Part shown: in pieces, positions 52,542 to 61,060 of the stretch
How the letters are laid out: every line of letters begins with the position of its first letter
Position numbering within the stretch: the first letter of the stretch is position 1
Source: Picosynechococcus sp. PCC 7003
GTDB lineage: Bacteria > Cyanobacteriota > Cyanobacteriia > Cyanobacteriales > MRBY01
Assembly (NCBI RefSeq): GCF_001693255.1
Contig: NZ_CP016474.1
Span: 638,661-702,660, forward strand
Length of the DNA stretch: 64,000 nucleotides
Direction of reading: 5' to 3'
Notes under the pieces: generated by a model
Databases searched by the model: none
Told to the model about the DNA's origin: nothing
What the model saw: the letters and a program-made list of their open reading frames with translations, nothing else
Made by a program: the position numbers and the translations under genes

Positions 52542-54461
52542 TTAGTGTTCCATTTCTGCCAGTTCTAACCACCGTTCTGTTTTCGCTTCGATGTCTTGGT
52601 TGAGGGCTTCTAATTTTAAAGAAAGGGCTTGTAATTGTTCGTAATCGACTTGGTTACTGAGTTCCGTTTGCAATGTTTCCCGCTGAATTTCTAGCTCAGG
52701 AATGATTTCATTTTCGAGGCGTTCTAGTTCCCGCCGTTGGTAGTTTGACAGGCGACGGGATGGGGCAGCTTTAGGTTTGCTAGGGGTTTGTGGTTTGGCG
52801 ATCGCCTCCTTTTGGGGAGGAGTCTCTGGTGGATTTTGGGCGGCTTCGGCCTGTTTGTAGTCTAAATAAAGGGAATAATTACCGGGGTATTGTTTCAGGA
52901 GTCCATTGCCTTCGAGGGCGAAAATCATATTCACGGTGCGGTCGAGGAAATAACGGTCGTGGGCAACAATAATCACGCAACCATTAAAATCTTCGAGATA
53001 ATCTTCCAAGATAGAAAGGGTTTGCACATCTAAATCATTTGTTGGTTCATCAAGGATGAGCAAATTTGGTGCCCCCATCAACACTTTTAGTAAAAATAAA
53101 CGCCGTTTTTCGCCCCCTGAAAGTTTGTGGATCGGGGCATATTGTTGGTCTGGAGGAAACAAAAATCGCTCCAGCATTTGGGAAGCAGTAATCTGGGTGC
53201 CGTCGGCGGTTTGCACGTAGGTCGCCACATCTTTTATGTAATCAATAACCCGTTGATTTTGTTTGTCTTCACCCAATAGATCATCGGAATGTTGATCAAA
53301 GTAGCCAATGTGGATCGTGCTGCCAATTTCGACGGTGCCGTGATCAGGTTCTAACTGTTGAGTAATCAGGTTTAAAAAGGTCGTTTTACCCGCCCCATTG
53401 CCACCGATAATCCCCAGGCGATCGCCAGGATTAAATTCATAACTAAAGTCTTTAATAATTAGGCGATCGCCAAAGCTTTTACAGAGATTTTCGACGACAA
53501 CAACTTTTTTGCCAATGCGCCGCCCCGGTGTATCAATTTCAACTTTATCTTGGGCTTCTTTGAAGGTTGTATTTTGCATATCGGCGATCCGATCAATGCG
53601 CGCTTTTTGTTTAGTACTTCTCGCCTTTGGCCCCCGCTTGAGCCATTCTAATTCCCGCCGCAAAACCCCTTTATGTTTTTGTTGGCTGCTAGCTGCTGCC
53701 TCTTCTGCCAGTGCTTTTTTCTCTAGGTAATAGGAATAATTTCCGGCATAGGTATACAGATCACCCCGATCAATTTCAATAATTCGGTTGGTGACTTTAT
53801 CGAGGAAATAACGATCGTGGGTAATTAACAGTAATGCCCCCGAAAATTGAGTTAAATAGCCCTCCAACCATTCCACTGAATCGGCATCTAAATGGTTCGT
53901 CGGCTCATCCATTAAAAGTAGATCGGGTTCCGAGAGAAGGGCAGAAGCAAGGGCAATGCGTTTGCGGTAGCCACCGGATAAATCACCGACTTTTGTTTCA
54001 AAATCATCAATGCCTAATTTACTTAAAATAATCTTGGCATTGGTTTCCACTTCCCAAGCATTGAGGGCATCCATTTTCTCGGTAATACTGGATAATTTGC
54101 CCATGAGGCTAGTCAATTCATCACCAGAAGCCTTTGCCATTTTATGGGATAAATCTTCGTAGGCTTTAACCCATTTCATCTGTTCGCTACAATTGGCAAA
54201 GATTTGATCTAAAACAGTATTTCCTGGATCGATTTCTGGTTGTTGCGGTAGATAGATAATTCTTGCCCCAGAACGAACCAACCGTTGCCCGCCATCAATG
54301 GGTTCAATCCCTGCAATCATTTTTAAAAGGGTTGATTTGCCACCCCCATTGACCCCAATTAAACCAACCTTTTTCCCATCATCAATACTAAAACTGGCGT
54401 CCCGCAGGATTTCCTTAATGCCAAAATCTTTCTTGATGGATTGCAGGGTGATAATACTCAT
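52542..54461 (-). CDS. ABC-F family ATPase (Uup/EttA-like translation factor)
   Basis: A 639-residue cytoplasmic protein with two ABC domains and no membrane segments. The first domain has GVNGGGKSTLLK near residue 38, LSGGYRKR near 163 and DEPTNHLD near 186. The second has GGNGAGKTTFLN near 356, LSGGEKRR near 443 and DEPTNDLD near 467. The linker between them carries the P-site tRNA-interaction region, and the C-terminus is a coiled coil (about 560-639) as in Uup. ABC-F proteins act on the ribosome, and Uup is also linked to DNA branch metabolism. Confidence 0.93.
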   Translation of the reverse strand: MSIITLQSIKKDFGIKEILRDASFSIDDGKKVGLIGVNGGGKSTLLKMIAGIEPIDGGQRLVRSGARIIYLPQQPEIDPGNTVLDQIFANCSEQMKWVKAYEDLSHKMAKASGDELTSLMGKLSSITEKMDALNAWEVETNAKIILSKLGIDDFETKVGDLSGGYRKRIALASALLSEPDLLLMDEPTNHLDADSVEWLEGYLTQFSGALLLITHDRYFLDKVTNRIIEIDRGDLYTYAGNYSYYLEKKALAEEAAASSQQKHKGVLRRELEWLKRGPKARSTKQKARIDRIADMQNTTFKEAQDKVEIDTPGRRIGKKVVVVENLCKSFGDRLIIKDFSYEFNPGDRLGIIGGNGAGKTTFLNLITQQLEPDHGTVEIGSTIHIGYFDQHSDDLLGEDKQNQRVIDYIKDVATYVQTADGTQITASQMLERFLFPPDQQYAPIHKLSGGEKRRLFLLKVLMGAPNLLILDEPTNDLDVQTLSILEDYLEDFNGCVIIVAHDRYFLDRTVNMIFALEGNGLLKQYPGNYSLYLDYKQAEAAQNPPETPPQKEAIAKPQTPSKPKAAPSRRLSNYQRRELERLENEIIPELEIQRETLQTELSNQVDYEQLQALSLKLEALNQDIEAKTERWLELAEMEH

Positions 54462-54487
54462 AAAAAGTGTAGTGATTATTTAAAGAT

Positions 54488-54937
54488 TTAATTATTCTGA
54501 GCTAATGAGTCCGTGAGAAGCTTCTCGAATTCCATTGGAAAAGGATACTGAGATGGAAAGCTTGCGTCATACTCAAACTGCATATTTTCAAGGGCTTCCT
54601 GATAGCAGTTAAGAAAAATATTTTGGAGGTGATTTTTTAAACTAGGGGAATCTCGGAGGATTTTCAGGATTTCTTTTTGGGTACGTCGAATGGTGACTTC
54701 CCAACCTCGATAGCATTCTTCTAAAGGGACATATTTTCGTTTGAGGGCATGTTCAAATAAAGTGGTTAAACGGCTTTCTATCTCGCGTTTTTCTCGCTTC
54801 CCCAAAGCCTCTATCTCCTCAATTAAATTCTCTCGATCAAGGGCTTGTAGGTTGCCTAATTTTAAATCAGAGATGGTTTGTTCAATCCATTGATAAAAGT
54901 CTTGATCATAGAGGGTTTTTGATTTTGCATGGGTCAT
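54488..54937 (-). CDS. DUF29 family protein
   Basis: This 149-residue, mainly helical protein belongs to DUF29, a family expanded in cyanobacteria. Characteristic parts are LYDQDFYQWIEQTISDLKLGNLQALDRENLIEEIEALGKREKREIESRL at residues 9-57 and the later FLNCYQEALENMQFE. Function is unknown. The gene is independent in context, between an ABC-F ATPase and thrS. Confidence 0.88.
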   Translation of the reverse strand: MTHAKSKTLYDQDFYQWIEQTISDLKLGNLQALDRENLIEEIEALGKREKREIESRLTTLFEHALKRKYVPLEECYRGWEVTIRRTQKEILKILRDSPSLKNHLQNIFLNCYQEALENMQFEYDASFPSQYPFPMEFEKLLTDSLAQNN

Positions 54938-54998
54938 AATCTCGCCCTCGTAATGGTGTTAAAAGGGGCTTACCACAGTAAACCCCTACAGATTCTAT

Positions 54999-56813
54999 TT
55001 AAAAATTGGTGTGGTTGGTGTTGGCTTCGACGAGACGGGAAATCACTTCATCCATCGAAATTGCCCCCAGTTCCCCAGAAGCACGGGTACGGATGCTCAA
55101 GCTGTTGGCTTCCACTTCCTTCGCGCCGGCGATCGCCATCACGGGGATTTTTTGTTTTTCGGCGTTGCGGATTAATTTACCGAGACGTTCCCCAGAGGCA
55201 TCAGCCACGGCCCGAATTCCCACAGCTTGTAGTTTGTCGGCTTGGGCTTTGGCGTAGTCGTAAAACTCATCACTGACGGGGAGAATACGCACCTGTTCAG
55301 GAGCGAGCCAGAGGGGGAAATCACCCGCATATTCTTCGATCAGAATGCCGATCAATCGCTCCAAGGAACCGAAGGGCGCGCGGTGGATCATGATCGGCCG
55401 TTGGCGGGAACCATCCTCAGCGACATATTCCAGTTCAAACCGTTCGGGGAGATTGTAGTCCACCTGCACCGTGCCCAGTTGCCATTCCCGTTCGAGGACA
55501 TCTTGGAAAATAAAGTCCAGTTTCGGCCCGTAGAACGCCGCTTCCCCTTCCGCTTCAAAGTAGTCCATGTCGAGCTTGGTGACGGCTTTACGGATTGCGT
55601 TTTGCGCCTTTTCCCAGACCTCATCGGAACCAATATATTTATCGGAGTTGGGGTCACGGAAACTGAGGCGGGCTTTGAAATTCTTCAGTTGCAAACTCTT
55701 GAACACGGTCAGGATCAAATCCACCACGTTAAAGAATTCTTCTTCGAGTTGGTCGGGGGTGACAAACAGGTGAGAATCGTCCACGGTAAAGCCCCGCACC
55801 CGCGTTAATCCGCCCAATTCACCGGATTGCTCATAACGGTAAACCGTGCCAAATTCTGCCAAACGGATCGGCAATTCTCGATAGGAACGCAGTTGATCTT
55901 TATAAATCTGAATGTGGAAGGGGCAGTTCATCGGCTTCATCACAAAACCCTGTTCTGCTGCCCGTTCTGCGTCGCCATCCGCCATCATCGGGAACATATC
56001 CTCGCGGTAGTTTTGCCAGTGACCGGATACTTTAAATAAATCCACACGGGCAATGTGAGGAGTCACGACACCTTGGTAACCGCGTTTGGTTTGTTCTGCC
56101 TTGAGGAAATTTTCGAGGGTGGAACGGATTAATGTACCTTTGGGAGTCCAGAGGGGTAAGCCAGGCCCGACTTGATCGGAAAACAGAAACAAGCCCAGTT
56201 CTTTACCGAGTTTGCGGTGGTCGCGTTTGAGGGCTTCTTCTTTGCGGCGTTGGTATTCTTTGAGTTGTTCGGGGGTTTCCCAAGCGGTGCCATAAATGCG
56301 TTGGAGCTGTTGTTTGGTTTCATCGCCGCGCCAGTAGGCTCCGGCAACGGATTCGAGGGCGATCGCCTTGGGGTTGATGTCACCGGTATTTTCGACGTGG
56401 GGGCCAGCGCACAGATCCCACCACTGATCGCCGAGGTAGTAGAGGGTGATCGGGTCGTGAATCCCTTCGAGGATTTCGAGTTTGTAGGGTTCGTTGATTT
56501 CTTTAATCCGTTTTTCGGCTTCGGCGCGGGAAATTTCTTCGCGGATGATGGGTAATTTTTTCTTGACGATTTTCACCATCTCTTTTTTGATCGCCTTGAG
56601 ATCCGCTTCGGTGAAGGGTTCTGGCTTGTCGAAATCGTAGTAAAACCCATTCTCTGTCCAAGGACCAATAGTGACCTGGGCGTCGGGAAATAGCTTTTGC
56701 ACTGCCATCGCCATGACGTGGGAGGTGGTGTGACGAATCCGCTTGAGGGTGTCTGATTCACTGGTTTTGGGAAGTTTCATCGGTTCGAGTTGTTCACCAT
56801 TCACCTGATCCAT
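54999..56813 (-). CDS. thrS: Threonyl-tRNA synthetase
   Basis: This class II synthetase charges tRNA-Thr. It has the editing domain (HTTSHVMAMAVQKL near residue 30 and DLCAGPHV near 130) and the catalytic core (motif 2 region TRVRGFTVDDSHLF near 330, motif 3 RAPFGSLERLIGILIEE near 475). An HGTP anticodon-binding domain follows at about 500-595. There is no N-terminal TGS domain, which accounts for its 604-residue length. That form occurs in other cyanobacteria. Confidence 0.95.
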   Translation of the reverse strand: MDQVNGEQLEPMKLPKTSESDTLKRIRHTTSHVMAMAVQKLFPDAQVTIGPWTENGFYYDFDKPEPFTEADLKAIKKEMVKIVKKKLPIIREEISRAEAEKRIKEINEPYKLEILEGIHDPITLYYLGDQWWDLCAGPHVENTGDINPKAIALESVAGAYWRGDETKQQLQRIYGTAWETPEQLKEYQRRKEEALKRDHRKLGKELGLFLFSDQVGPGLPLWTPKGTLIRSTLENFLKAEQTKRGYQGVVTPHIARVDLFKVSGHWQNYREDMFPMMADGDAERAAEQGFVMKPMNCPFHIQIYKDQLRSYRELPIRLAEFGTVYRYEQSGELGGLTRVRGFTVDDSHLFVTPDQLEEEFFNVVDLILTVFKSLQLKNFKARLSFRDPNSDKYIGSDEVWEKAQNAIRKAVTKLDMDYFEAEGEAAFYGPKLDFIFQDVLEREWQLGTVQVDYNLPERFELEYVAEDGSRQRPIMIHRAPFGSLERLIGILIEEYAGDFPLWLAPEQVRILPVSDEFYDYAKAQADKLQAVGIRAVADASGERLGKLIRNAEKQKIPVMAIAGAKEVEANSLSIRTRASGELGAISMDEVISRLVEANTNHTNF

Positions 56814-56906: not shown

Positions 56907-57392
56907 TTACCGGATATCGTTGCGTAAGCCACAGGCGGCGGCATAGGCGATCGCAATGGCATCGACGCTGTCATCGATAGGCATCGCCTCCATCCCAAAA
57001 ATCGACTGTACTAGAGTTGCCACTTCCCGCTTATCGGCCTTCGCGTTACCGATGTGGCATTTCCAACTGGATTGGTGCAGATAAATGGGTTCGATGTTTA
57101 ATTCTCGCAGGCTGACGAGATTTAAAATGCCTAGGCCCTGCAATACGCCTCCTGCAGCTTTGATCTGACGACTAAAAAAAGGCATTTCGATGGCGATCGC
57201 CTCTGGGTGAAATTCCCCCAAAATTTCTGTGTAATCTTGTTCAATCTCCAGCAGTCGTTGGGGCGTCGATAAATCTTTGGCCGTTTCGATAATGCCGTAA
57301 TCAAGAATGTGCGGCAGCGTTTGCCCTTGTTCTTCGAGGACAGCCCAGCCAATAATCGCTAAACCAGGATCAATGCCAAGCCAACGCTTCAT
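56907..57392 (-). CDS. ruvC: Holliday junction resolvase RuvC
   Basis: RuvC cuts four-way DNA junctions made by RuvAB. The 161-residue protein has catalytic acids at the start (LGIDPGLAIIGWA, Asp7), in AIAIEMPFF (Glu near 68) and in the C-terminal DDSVDAIAIAYAA (Asps near 139-142). It is the last core gene before the HIP1-free, AT-rich stretch. Confidence 0.94.
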   Translation of the reverse strand: MKRWLGIDPGLAIIGWAVLEEQGQTLPHILDYGIIETAKDLSTPQRLLEIEQDYTEILGEFHPEAIAIEMPFFSRQIKAAGGVLQGLGILNLVSLRELNIEPIYLHQSSWKCHIGNAKADKREVATLVQSIFGMEAMPIDDSVDAIAIAYAAACGLRNDIR

Positions 57393-57433
57393 GGCAAAAT
57401 AATTTTTATAAGGTATTTATTAATCATCTTTTC

Positions 57434-57490
57434 TCATAAGCTAGAAAATACCGTACTTCCACTAATAATTAATGTTAGATAGCGTGTCAT
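57434..57490 (-). pseudogene. Remnant of a Doc-type toxin gene
   Basis: The antitoxin stop TGA (57,487-57,489) overlaps an ATG in the ATGA arrangement usual for toxin-antitoxin operons. The frame starts MTRYLTL, like the N-terminus of Doc/Fic death-on-curing toxins, but then diverges and stops after 18 residues. No HXFX(D/N) Fic motif follows before ruvC. This looks like a deleted toxin; the identification rests on seven residues plus position. Confidence 0.45.
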
Positions 57491-57684
57491 GCTAGACGGC
57501 GATAAAGTTCAACATTTTTCTTCAGTACATAGCTTGATGCTTGGGGAAAATCTTTTTTAGGGCTAGTCAACAAGTCTTCTATGCTAACGCCCAGAAACTC
57601 TTCAGGAGAAACTTGGTTACTCCGAGCCAACTCTTGCAATCGGCTCAACTGTTCATTTGAGAGATTAATGGTAATAGAAGCCAT
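57487..57684 (-). CDS. Antitoxin-like protein, partner of Doc-family toxins (65 aa)
   Basis: The N-terminal part ASITINLSNEQLSRLQELARS resembles ribbon-helix-helix antitoxins. The C-terminal segment SSYVLKKNVELYRRLA is typical of small antitoxins encoded just before Doc toxins in cyanobacteria. It would bind DNA and neutralise the toxin, but only a vestige of the toxin frame remains downstream. The gene thus appears orphaned. It sits at the edge of the AT-rich island. Confidence 0.72.
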   Translation of the reverse strand: MASITINLSNEQLSRLQELARSNQVSPEEFLGVSIEDLLTSPKKDFPQASSYVLKKNVELYRRLA

Positions 57685-57875
57685 GAGAAGCCCCGAATTT
57701 AGAACGATATTTAAAAAGCACTTCCAGTGTACTTGACTCCTTAGAAACGACTAAAATCCTCAAGGTTTTTTAATGCTCAAAGCAAGGTGATCATCTTCTC
57801 TAATAACTTCTCAACGCCTAAACCATGTCACCTATGCATCGCAAAACATGGCTTGCATCCGAACAAGCGCCATAT

Positions 57876-58127
57876 TTACGTGATGGATTTATCCGTGGCA
57901 TTAATTTTGGTGAGTAACAGAGAAATAATTTTTTGCTGGAGATCGACTGTTGTCTTGTTTTTATACTGAGGAAATGATTGCTTATCTATATCTAGCCTCT
58001 TTGCAAGATCGCTATCAAATCTGTCTCCTGTCAAAATCTTCACTTGCTCTATTATTTCTTTAGGTGATAGTACGTCCATGACAAAAGTAAATAAATCATT
58101 TACAATGGCAGATGTTTCATTTACCAT
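57876..58127 (-). CDS. Putative CI-like helix-turn-helix regulator (83 aa)
   Basis: A small protein whose central part (GDRFDSDLAKRLDIDKQSFPQYKNK, about 34-58) resembles the HTH of bacteriophage CI-type repressors. A helix LQQKIISLLLTKINA follows. It lies divergently only 36 bases from the methyltransferase start, the usual place for a controller gene of a restriction-modification system. Whether it controls the methylase is inference. Codon use is AT-rich, like the neighbouring methylase. Confidence 0.6.
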   Translation of the reverse strand: MVNETSAIVNDLFTFVMDVLSPKEIIEQVKILTGDRFDSDLAKRLDIDKQSFPQYKNKTTVDLQQKIISLLLTKINATDKSIT

Positions 58128-58163
58128 AAAGCTTTAAACTGAATATAACAAGAGATTACTTCT

Positions 58164-59219
58164 ATGGCTCAACACTATTCCTCTATCGAACTATGTGCTG
58201 GTGCGGGTGGACAGGCCCTTGGGCTTCATTTGGCTGGGTTCAAGCATAAAGTTTTAATTGAAATAGAAAAATCTGCTTGCAAAACACTCACACATAACAA
58301 CAATGTTCACTCACTTGGATGGGGAGAAATAATTGAAGGATGTGTGGAGCATTTTGCTAAAAATGAAGCGCACAATTACAAAGGGGTAGATCTTGTTGCC
58401 GGTGGTGTACCATGCCCACCTTTTTCAAAGGCAGGTAAGCAGCTAGGAAAAGATGACGAAAGAGACCTTTTTCCTGCAGCAATTAAAATCGTAGCCAAGG
58501 TTTTACCTAAAGCTGTAATGCTAGAAAACGTTTCAGGCTTACTAGACTCAAAATTTGATTCATATAGAGAAGAAATTGATTTTTCACTTAATACCTTGGG
58601 TTATAAGACATTTTGGAAACTACTGAATGCTTCCGATTTTGGAGTTCCCCAGTTAAGACCGAGAGTTGTACTGGTTGCATTGAGAGGAAAGTATGCGCAG
58701 TATTTTTCATGGCCAGACTATACGATTGAACCTCCAACAGTAGGAGAAGCATTATATGATTTAATGGCTGCGAACGGCTGGGATCAAGTAGATGAATGGA
58801 AGAAGAAAGCCAACAAGATAGCACCAACGTTAGTCGGTGGCTCTAAGAAACATGGTGGGCCTGATCTAGGCCCTTCGAGGGCTAGACGTGCTTGGCAAGA
58901 GCTTCACGTTAATGGAAATATTGTTGGCAATGATGCACCGGAACAAAACTATAGAGGATATAAAAACAAAGAAGAATATAGAAATATGCCATTACTAACA
59001 GTAAAGATGGCCGCAAGGATTCAAGGTTTTCCAGACTGGTGGGAATTTTATGGTAAAAAAACTCCCGCATATCGACAGGTTGGAAATGCTTTTCCTCCTC
59101 CTGTTGCGGAGGCAGTTGGGAAAGAAATATTTAAAGCACTTAAAGCTATTGATAGAAAAAAAATGTCGCCTAGTCTTTGTTTTTGTCGTCAAGATAATAA
59201 TTTGATGCATCTTCCATAA
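58164..59219 (+). CDS. dcm: DNA (cytosine-5-)-methyltransferase
   Basis: A type II modification enzyme of 351 residues. Motif I is SIELCAGAGGQALG (about 7-20). Motif IV holds the catalytic Cys84 in GGVPCPPFSKAG, motif VI is MLENVSG, motif VIII is QLRPRVVLVAL and motif X is YRQVGNAFPPPVAEAVG. The target site cannot be read from sequence. The gene overlaps the converging HNH endonuclease gene by 50 bases at the 3' end. It is AT-rich and without HIP1 sites, unlike the core genes around it, so acquisition by transfer is likely. Confidence 0.93.
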   Translation: MAQHYSSIELCAGAGGQALGLHLAGFKHKVLIEIEKSACKTLTHNNNVHSLGWGEIIEGCVEHFAKNEAHNYKGVDLVAGGVPCPPFSKAGKQLGKDDERDLFPAAIKIVAKVLPKAVMLENVSGLLDSKFDSYREEIDFSLNTLGYKTFWKLLNASDFGVPQLRPRVVLVALRGKYAQYFSWPDYTIEPPTVGEALYDLMAANGWDQVDEWKKKANKIAPTLVGGSKKHGGPDLGPSRARRAWQELHVNGNIVGNDAPEQNYRGYKNKEEYRNMPLLTVKMAARIQGFPDWWEFYGKKTPAYRQVGNAFPPPVAEAVGKEIFKALKAIDRKKMSPSLCFCRQDNNLMHLP

Positions 59220-59847
59220 CTTTATCGCGAGTAGTTTTATTTCTGATTGAATACTCGTCTATTCGGCGAAGAGTTTTCTCACTTATTGACACCACGGTTA
59301 TAACGCCGAATTTTTCAGGATATGCCCAGGAACAGGTTTCGCATTCTAATTCGCAACCCTCGCAGGCACGCCTTTTTCCCACATTACAGTTATTGCACAT
59401 AGGTTGCCAATTTGTAAGCTCGTTTGAACCGCCTCTAGATAGCGGTACTTTGTGATCTGCTTGTAAACCCTTTATACCAGCAGATATTTGTATTCCACAA
59501 GTTACACAAGTGTAATTATGATCCTCAAATAGTTTGTTTTTTTGTCTTTGTGTTAAATAACCTCTATCTTGTGGTGGGGATAGGCTGCTAGATTTAAGTC
59601 TCCAACCGTGGCCATTGAATTGCTCGATATACGAACTTTCTATGTCACAACCAAGCTCATCTCTTAACTCTCTTGTTCGTCTATCGAAGTATTTTTGGCC
59701 AGTGAGTTCCAACAGTTCATCCGATGATACCCATGGTTTTGGGAAAGCATCAGATGTATCACCCCATAAACGAGTTAATATTTTCGATTTGACGTCACTA
59801 AGCTTTCTTTTCGTTGGTAGAGACTGGAGGTAACTATCTAGCTGCAT
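59170..59847 (-). CDS. HNH restriction endonuclease (partner of the cytosine methylase)
   Basis: A 225-residue nuclease. The N-terminal region (about 36-86) looks like a winged-helix domain (VSSDELLELTGQ, FDRRTRELRDELG), probably for DNA recognition. The HNH core has Cys114/Cys117 in CVTCG, the catalytic pair Asp131-His132 in ADHKVPLSRGG, and Cys151/Cys154 in MCNNCN. Another cysteine cluster follows (C162, C165, C169, C172). Position tail-to-tail with the methylase supports a type II restriction-modification pair. Cutting specificity is unknown. Confidence 0.85.
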   Translation of the reverse strand: MQLDSYLQSLPTKRKLSDVKSKILTRLWGDTSDAFPKPWVSSDELLELTGQKYFDRRTRELRDELGCDIESSYIEQFNGHGWRLKSSSLSPPQDRGYLTQRQKNKLFEDHNYTCVTCGIQISAGIKGLQADHKVPLSRGGSNELTNWQPMCNNCNVGKRRACEGCELECETCSWAYPEKFGVITVVSISEKTLRRIDEYSIRNKTTRDKVMEDASNYYLDDKNKD

Positions 59848-60007
59848 AGCTTGTGGGAACTAATCACATAACTATGTATTGTACGAATGCCTTTCATATA
59901 AAGTTGCTTCTGTTACTTTTGTATGAAATATTTTGGCATAAATTCTTTGATGTTTATTTACGCTATCACAATAGTCAAGAGAAGCAAATCCCCATCTATA
60001 AGCTTTG

Positions 60008-61060
60008 TCAACGATGGCGACGCAAAATTAAAATGACAATAATCGGTGCGCCGAACATTGCCGTAACCGTATTCAAGGGTAACGTTAATTCACTCCCTGG
60101 CAATTGCACAATAATATCCGCGAGCAACGCCAGACTAGATCCCAATAAAGTCACCGCTGGAACCAAAAGCCGATGATCGACGGTTTTCAGTAAGCCCCGA
60201 CAGAGGTGCGGCACCGCAATCCCCAGAAAAGAAATCGGGCCACAAAATGCCGTTACTGATCCCGCCAAAAGAGCAGTACTGACAATGATGTGACGACGGG
60301 TTGCTTTTAGGTTGAGGCCGACGCTTTGGGCGTATTGTTTGCCGAGAAGGAGCGCGTTCAAGGGTTTTGCCTGGAAAAAAGCCAGCAGCCCCCCCGCAAA
60401 AATTAACACCATAAAAATGGGCAACTGCTCCTGCTGGATTTCGGCGAAACTGCCAAATGTCCAACTTAGATACAGGCGCAGCGCCTCTGTGGGGCTAAAG
60501 TGCAACAGCAATGTCACCAAAGAATTACTGACGTAGCCGAGCATCAACCCCAAAATTAGTAGGGTGCCATTGTGGGGAATCCGACGGGCGATCGCCAAGA
60601 CGAGCAGCAACACCACCACCGCCCCCAAACTCGCCGCCATCGCCACACTCAAATTTCCGAACAGACCGCCCATAAAACCCGTTCCCAACAGCACCAGGGC
60701 GACCCCCAAACTTGCGCCAGAATTGATGCCCAGCACAAAAGGGCCAGCGAGGGGATTGTTAAACAGGGTTTGCATCTGGAGGCCGCTAATGCCGAGGGCA
60801 GCCCCGGCAAAGGTGGCAGCGATCGCCCGTGGAAAGCGCAGTTGCCAAACGATTTCTGCCCACACCGGATTGTCAATGGGTTGGCCTAAGGCGATCGCCA
60901 AGAGTTGATCCCAGGGAATGGTCGTCGAGCCAAGACTCAAGCTAAGGAAAAATAAGACCCCCCACAGGCCCCCCAGCAGAATAAATAACGAAGGCGATCG
61001 CCACCGTAGTTCCGGTAGAGACAAACAAGTTAAAGGGGTCGTGGTGTAGGGAATTTTCAC
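60008..61060 (-). CDS. FecCD/BtuC-type ABC transporter permease
   Basis: An inner-membrane permease of 350 residues with about nine or ten hydrophobic helices, for siderophore-iron, haem or vitamin B12. Family marks are LRFPRAIAATFAGAALGISGLQMQTLFNNPLAGPFVLGINSGASLG near residues 70-115 and the region GPISFLGIAVPHLCRGL near 270. Its GTG start overlaps the TGA stop of the binding-protein gene (GTGA), implying translational coupling. No ATPase gene follows before the AT-rich restriction genes. Confidence 0.9.
   Translation of the reverse strand: MKIPYTTTPLTCLSLPELRWRSPSLFILLGGLWGVLFFLSLSLGSTTIPWDQLLAIALGQPIDNPVWAEIVWQLRFPRAIAATFAGAALGISGLQMQTLFNNPLAGPFVLGINSGASLGVALVLLGTGFMGGLFGNLSVAMAASLGAVVVLLLVLAIARRIPHNGTLLILGLMLGYVSNSLVTLLLHFSPTEALRLYLSWTFGSFAEIQQEQLPIFMVLIFAGGLLAFFQAKPLNALLLGKQYAQSVGLNLKATRRHIIVSTALLAGSVTAFCGPISFLGIAVPHLCRGLLKTVDHRLLVPAVTLLGSSLALLADIIVQLPGSELTLPLNTVTAMFGAPIIVILILRRHR

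Follow-up and report, generated by a model that had tools for sequence, protein, structure and literature searches.

The window analysed here is a 64-kb stretch (64,000 bp) of Picosynechococcus sp. PCC 7003. Between ruvC and fecC it carries an AT-rich block with an HNH restriction endonuclease gene (R), a C5-cytosine DNA methyltransferase gene (M) and a small putative regulator gene (C); the open reading frames agree with a preliminary description of the sequence, which had listed a methyltransferase and an HNH nuclease together with two small genes. The locus was compared chiefly with those of PCC 7117 (L043), NIES-970 (L045), a gammaproteobacterial MAG (L052) and a Thiotrichaceae MAG (L053). 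Its features are as follows.

57487..57684, minus strand: antitoxin-like (RHH) orphan gene, 65 aa, outside the proposed cassette and missing from PCC 7117 at this place
57695..57814, no strand: left flank outside the proposed cassette, common to PCC 7117 and NIES-970 (alignment scores 30 and 47, shuffle maximum 20.5)
57809..57815, minus strand: left core GTTGAGA, GTTAAGG in both PCC 7117 and NIES-970
57815..59871, minus strand: proposed integron-type gene cassette of 2,057 bp with R, M and C, a GTT core at both borders
57816..57883, minus strand: putative degenerate attC-like cassette end with a terminator-like hairpin (57851-57868), stem CCATGT/ACATGG
57876..58079, minus strand: C gene, putative regulator, 67 aa, divergent from M; start placed by conservation, the called ORF extending to 58127
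58078..58106, plus strand: promoter-like site for M, ATGACA-17-TACAAT, overlapping operator 1; a consensus match whose count is not above that in shuffles
58087..58103, no strand: putative operator 1, GTAAAT-N5-ATTTAC, perfect, the window's only site with 0 mismatches
58108..58124, no strand: putative operator 2, with 2 mismatches, aligned with the second operator of both MAGs
58164..59219, plus strand: M, C5-cytosine DNA methyltransferase gene, 351 aa, convergent with R and overlapping it by 50 bp
59170..59847, minus strand: R, HNH restriction endonuclease gene, 225 aa, 25 bp from the attI core and the nearest gene to it on the cassette side
59866..59872, minus strand: attI recombination core GTTATGT, predicted cleavage after G59872; homology among attI copies ends within a few bp
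59869..59942, no strand: fossil attI or intI-upstream region, 77% over 74 bp to the intI-upstream region of NIES-970 (E 4e-9, genome search)
59955..59974, plus strand: intI coding scar (codons YLRYHN), 17/20 bases

R matches the Pfam HNH family at 37.7 bits (cut-off 21.4) and the PADLOC profile REase_II (PDLC03478, E 3e-23), and its HNH residues and two CxxC pairs are invariant across 6 aligned homologues. M matches PF00145 at 233 bits over residues 6-324, with the PCPPFS, ENV and QLRPR motifs visible. An intact methyltransferase with its catalytic motifs is accompanied by a conserved adjacent nuclease, as in a Type II restriction-modification (R-M) system: R and M are convergent or paired at all nine related loci, namely those of L052, L053, two Thiothrix, Octadecabacter, Aliiroseovarius, two Endozoicomonas and a Holophagaceae MAG. 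The best PADLOC profiles of M are those of DruM2 (PDLC00029, E 3e-144), from which M might be taken for a part of Druantia type II or for a solitary regulatory methylase. Druantia type II would place a large DruE/F/G gene beside DruM, but the cassette holds three genes only, with no DruE/F/G-like large helicase gene among them, and an HNH gene adjoins the M homologue at 9/9 related loci; both assignments are therefore very improbable.

The C gene occupies the same position in L052 and L053, with 78% and 67% identity, respectively. When its start is set at 58079 and not at 58127, the two putative operators fall outside the coding sequence. Tandem palindromes between C and M recur in both MAGs, two perfect in L052 and one perfect plus one single-mismatch in L053; no other site with fewer than 2 mismatches occurs in the window, and a 400-kb sample of the same genome holds two 1-mismatch sites. 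Three loci thus combine a regulator gene with conserved tandem putative operators, as in C-regulated R-M systems, and C may regulate M and itself through them. No such operator precedes R, either in the window or at the other loci, which gives no sign that C controls R. A Pfam search with C gave no match, a comparison with known controller proteins found no family match, and the PHROG search returned phrog_3626 at E 7e-4, a weak match of unknown function. The AlphaFold model of C (pLDDT 61) was too poor for a fold search, as was that of R. The CI-like HTH gene of the preliminary description therefore stands as a small gene, with weak support for its being an HTH protein and no Pfam match behind the name. 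Rfam gave no match at the island.

HIP1 (GCGATCGC) occurs 117 times in the window, against about 1 copy expected from dinucleotide shuffles, and is missing throughout 57201-60587, the largest HIP1 gap of the window. GC content is 0.39-0.40 across this stretch and about 0.51 otherwise, so that both the HIP1-free span next to ruvC and its AT-richness are borne out. However, HIP1 has a mean spacing of 563 bp in the 400-kb sample, 0.28 gaps of such length are expected per 64 kb, and the sample contains 4 gaps equally long or longer. Because of these frequencies the gap is insufficient as proof of transfer, and HIP1 depletion was rejected in that role; taken singly, the gap is a weak sign of foreign DNA and not significant. 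HIP1-free 2-kb windows make up 18/25 of those with low GC compared with 7/648 of normal ones, and the proposal that HIP1 depletion is a simple marker of foreign DNA thus holds in that depletion follows low GC and fails in that this genome has many such gaps. The use of oligomer counts of the HIP1 type as transfer indicators has been published (PMC3497702). Another AT-rich stretch, at 53000-55000 of the window (GC 0.39-0.44), carries a DUF29 gene.

Codon use is a stronger sign of transfer than the HIP1 gap. Of 189 reference genes, 0-0.5% score as low as R, M and C do, and ruvC and fecB are typical; the check proposed earlier, of GC, HIP1 and codon adaptation, confirmed low GC in the block and foreign codon use of all three genes. 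The full set of R, M and C is 75-84% identical in the gammaproteobacterial MAG (R 80%, M 84%). Full-length R was absent from the 385 other cyanobacterial genomes sampled, and no full-length relative was found in viral contigs, phage records or plasmid records, the single phage match covering half of its length at 32% identity. It is GC content, codon use and relatives, not the HIP1 gap, that settle the foreign origin of the block.

A 78-bp element lies to the right of the blocks of both PCC 7003 and PCC 7117 and recurs in the genus. In NIES-970 it sits directly upstream of an intact integron integrase gene (TIGR02249, 470 bits, cut-off 265), and at several other loci it runs on into truncated integrase sequence, which together identify it as the attI/integrase-promoter region of an ancestral integron. 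Fourteen attI copies agree up to a GTTRRRY-like core and diverge past it, and in most of them a gene starts close by on the cassette side. The insertion in PCC 7003 likewise lies at an integron core beside attI, GTTATGT having 1 mismatch to GTTRRRY. No intact integrase, as a functional integron would possess, is present at the site, which retains just the 20-bp intI scar; 0.01 matches to this scar are expected in the window and 0 were found in the 400-kb sample.

The 78-bp repeat was also considered as a set of attC sites of a cassette array and rejected, since a strict attC finder returned nothing and the repeat is continuous with intI. RNAalifold gave little support on the attI alignment, and the cyanobacterial intI loci yielded no set of attC repeats clean enough to build a covariance model on. 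Several attI copies (L112:5022-5160 and others) contain up to three palindromes of ~23 bp (TTATACGGA...TCCGTATAA type), ~42 bp apart, possibly binding sites of the integrase or of a regulator.

The R-M set of L052 starts in the same way. An identical 8-mer core, GTTATGTG, is found about 25 bp before the start of R, and an attC-like hairpin (fold z -4.0) lies ahead of it; this supports reading the set as a cassette in that genome too. The borders could in principle be explained otherwise, by an ordinary R-M island that recombination, homologous or illegitimate, brought to an intergenic hot spot, with the attI-like repeat being a conserved promoter or regulatory repeat. Palindromes and promoter-like hexamers do occur in the repeat, many unrelated genes begin shortly after it, and the flanks permit homologous exchange in a competent genus. 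Such an island, however, would leave unexplained why at several loci the repeat passes without a break into intI coding sequence, why it lies upstream of an intact intI, why homology stops at GTTRRRY-like cores, and why an unrelated bacterium has its R-M set beginning at the same core with an attC-like hairpin ahead of it; we regard such an island as unlikely.

Comparison of the fec site among relatives revealed the block as an exchangeable unit. PCC 7117, whose ruvC is 98% identical at the protein level, carries an unrelated AT-rich gene of 515 aa in the ruvC-fecC interval; this gene was sought in the PCC 7003 genome and is absent. In NIES-970 the order after fecC is the shared attI, then GNAT and amidotransferase genes as a third cargo, and finally the shared left flank. 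The left flanks start with GTTGAGA in PCC 7003 and with GTTAAGG in PCC 7117 and NIES-970. Outside both cores, pairwise scores are 30-47 against shuffle maxima of about 21 (0/500) for all three pairs at both borders, whereas inside the cores they are at shuffle level, again for all three pairs at both borders. Since the flanks are homologous and the interiors are not, three genomes hold three unrelated cargos between the same two cores, the exchangeability expected of a cassette. The comparison of related strains that had been suggested for this locus thus produced other cargo between the same cores, and no empty attI was seen at the fec site among the loci compared; such a site is predicted to read ...ATACATAG followed directly by TTAAGGGATCATCAC... 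At the left end, the candidate attC comprises a GTT core, a stem, a weak R'' box (5/7) and a fold z of about -1 (not significant), the cassette's own attC being degenerate or putative only. NIES-970 also has two identical-scoring ruvC copies 20 kb apart (G001:C1:860742-861221 and 880798-881277), which suggests a duplication or an assembly repeat.

The horizontal transfer between ruvC and the permease gene that the preliminary description proposed is supported by codon use, by phylogenetic distribution and by a close relative in which other DNA takes the place of the block; cargo differs among relatives and codon use is foreign, rather than the same genes recurring in all of them with core-like codon use. 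For the epithet "recent" the sequence gives no support, the integrase being gone and the flanks having diverged 28-35% from those of PCC 7117. The "TA remnant" does not belong to the island, as the antitoxin-like gene lies outside the borders at 57815 and 59871. Its homologue in NIES-970 precedes a Fic/Doc toxin gene; no toxin gene adjoins it at the PCC 7003 locus. What the earlier reading overlooked is the mechanism: by their sequence, both edges are cores of integron recombination, accompanied by a fossil attI and a remnant of the integrase gene.

We therefore interpret the island as an integron-type mobile cassette that carries a complete Type II R-M system and sits in the attI of an ancestral Picosynechococcus integron which has since lost its integrase (probability roughly 0.8). 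R-M genes can occur as integron cassettes. This interpretation is built on the GTT cores at both borders, the right one being that of the attI homologue and adjoined by the intI scrap; on the two relatives with the same outer flanks and unrelated genes between the same cores; and on the gammaproteobacterial MAG, where an attC-like hairpin and the same core stand ahead of the same R-M set. Weighing against it are the weak attC of the cassette, the 1-mismatch attI core, the missing integrase and the unseen empty site. Mobility at present is not supported, because no integron integrase scores above the cut-off in the PCC 7003 genome or in PCC 7117; across the order, 16/195 species have one above it.

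An integron integrase, then in the lineage or in a donor strain, would have joined a circular cassette through its attC to attI, and the lineage would have lost its integrase afterwards. Alternatively, the last step may have been a homologous swap at the ancestral integron site, natural transformation with other Picosynechococcus DNA replacing an earlier cassette across the shared flanks without a local integrase. The lack of an integrase in both PCC 7003 and PCC 7117 favours this variant, and so do flanks that by the cores (66-72%) are more diverged than ruvC, as if they had been imported together with the cargo. Nothing decisive speaks against it; as a sub-case of the cassette interpretation, with which it is not exclusive, it alters the last step only and leaves the cassette nature intact, and we give it slightly less than an even chance.

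Once inserted, M would protect a site with 5-methylcytosine and the HNH enzyme would cut unmethylated phage DNA, while the C protein would bind the two putative GTAAAT-N5-ATTTAC operators and probably set the level of M and its own. As R is the first gene behind attI, the attI scar or its surroundings probably supply the promoter of R. M, with its own divergent promoter under C, would keep the host protected wherever the cassette lands, and expression of R would depend on the sequence upstream of the landing site, here the attI scar.

Other attI scars in the genus are followed by further cargo. One scar in NIES-970 precedes Gabija (GajA 454 bits, GajB 839 bits), and a pPIWI-associated nuclease gene (PF18165, L116:7559-8719) of the same strain starts about 15 bp from an attI core; in another genome of the genus, a scar and truncated integrase lie beside an NNH2-NACHT-HEAT gene encoding a NACHT NTPase of 970 aa (G005, L152:8006-11386). 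Further scars carry YaaC-like, GFA, glyoxalase-like, cupin, GNAT or unknown genes. The cargo looks rich in defence genes. It is conceivable, at a little under even odds, that scattered, solitary and mostly integrase-less attI scars serve Picosynechococcus as interchangeable docking sites for phage-defence genes, swapped at many loci instead of being collected in one array. An attC-like hairpin and the same GTTATGTG core as in the R-M cassette stand ahead of the Gabija operon (L114:7335-11109). Beside the intact intI of NIES-970 (L112:6200-9620), a sequence of ~80 bp (GCGATCGCCCCGAAACAAGTGGTTGCTGCGCGGAATAGTTATGGTGG...) occurs about four times between small cassette-like genes, and we take it to resemble the 3' end of argH.

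As far as the literature found shows, three things are new: that solitary attI scars lie scattered in Picosynechococcus, that cargo is exchanged at the fec site, and that one such scar holds an R-M set also present in proteobacteria; no published report of Picosynechococcus attI scars with defence cargo was found. A vague foreign island is thereby turned into a defined event, the arrival of a cross-phylum R-M set at a recognisable recombination core. If attI scars are general, the conserved attI with its core would provide a sequence handle for new cyanobacterial defence genes, and would raise the questions of how an integron multiplies its docking site round the chromosome and whether the integrase of NIES-970 is still active in supplying these sites.

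Like PvuII, AhdI and Esp1396I, the R-M system has a small regulator gene beside M and tandem palindromic putative operators in the shared intergenic region; unlike in those systems, R is not downstream of C but convergent with M at the far end. Chromosomal integrons are known in cyanobacteria, with intI in Synechococcus sp. (PMC3607928) and a set of attC sites (PMC8352920; see also PMC2426708), so that integrases and attC sites have precedents in the phylum. The eroded integrons of Xanthomonas, in which the integrase has been inactivated in many lineages and cassettes have been retained (PMC12444791), share with our case an ancestral integron, integrase decay and the keeping of cassettes, but they occupy a single fixed locus (ilvD) with arrays, whereas the attI scars here are many and dispersed. 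Sedentary chromosomal integrons store antiphage systems (Darracq et al. 2025, cited in PMC12409362). As far as that citation describes them, their defence genes are cassettes behind the attI of a chromosomal integron, as proposed here; unlike the large Vibrio array, the attI sites of Picosynechococcus are solitary, scattered and integrase-less, hold one or few cassettes and belong to a cyanobacterial host.
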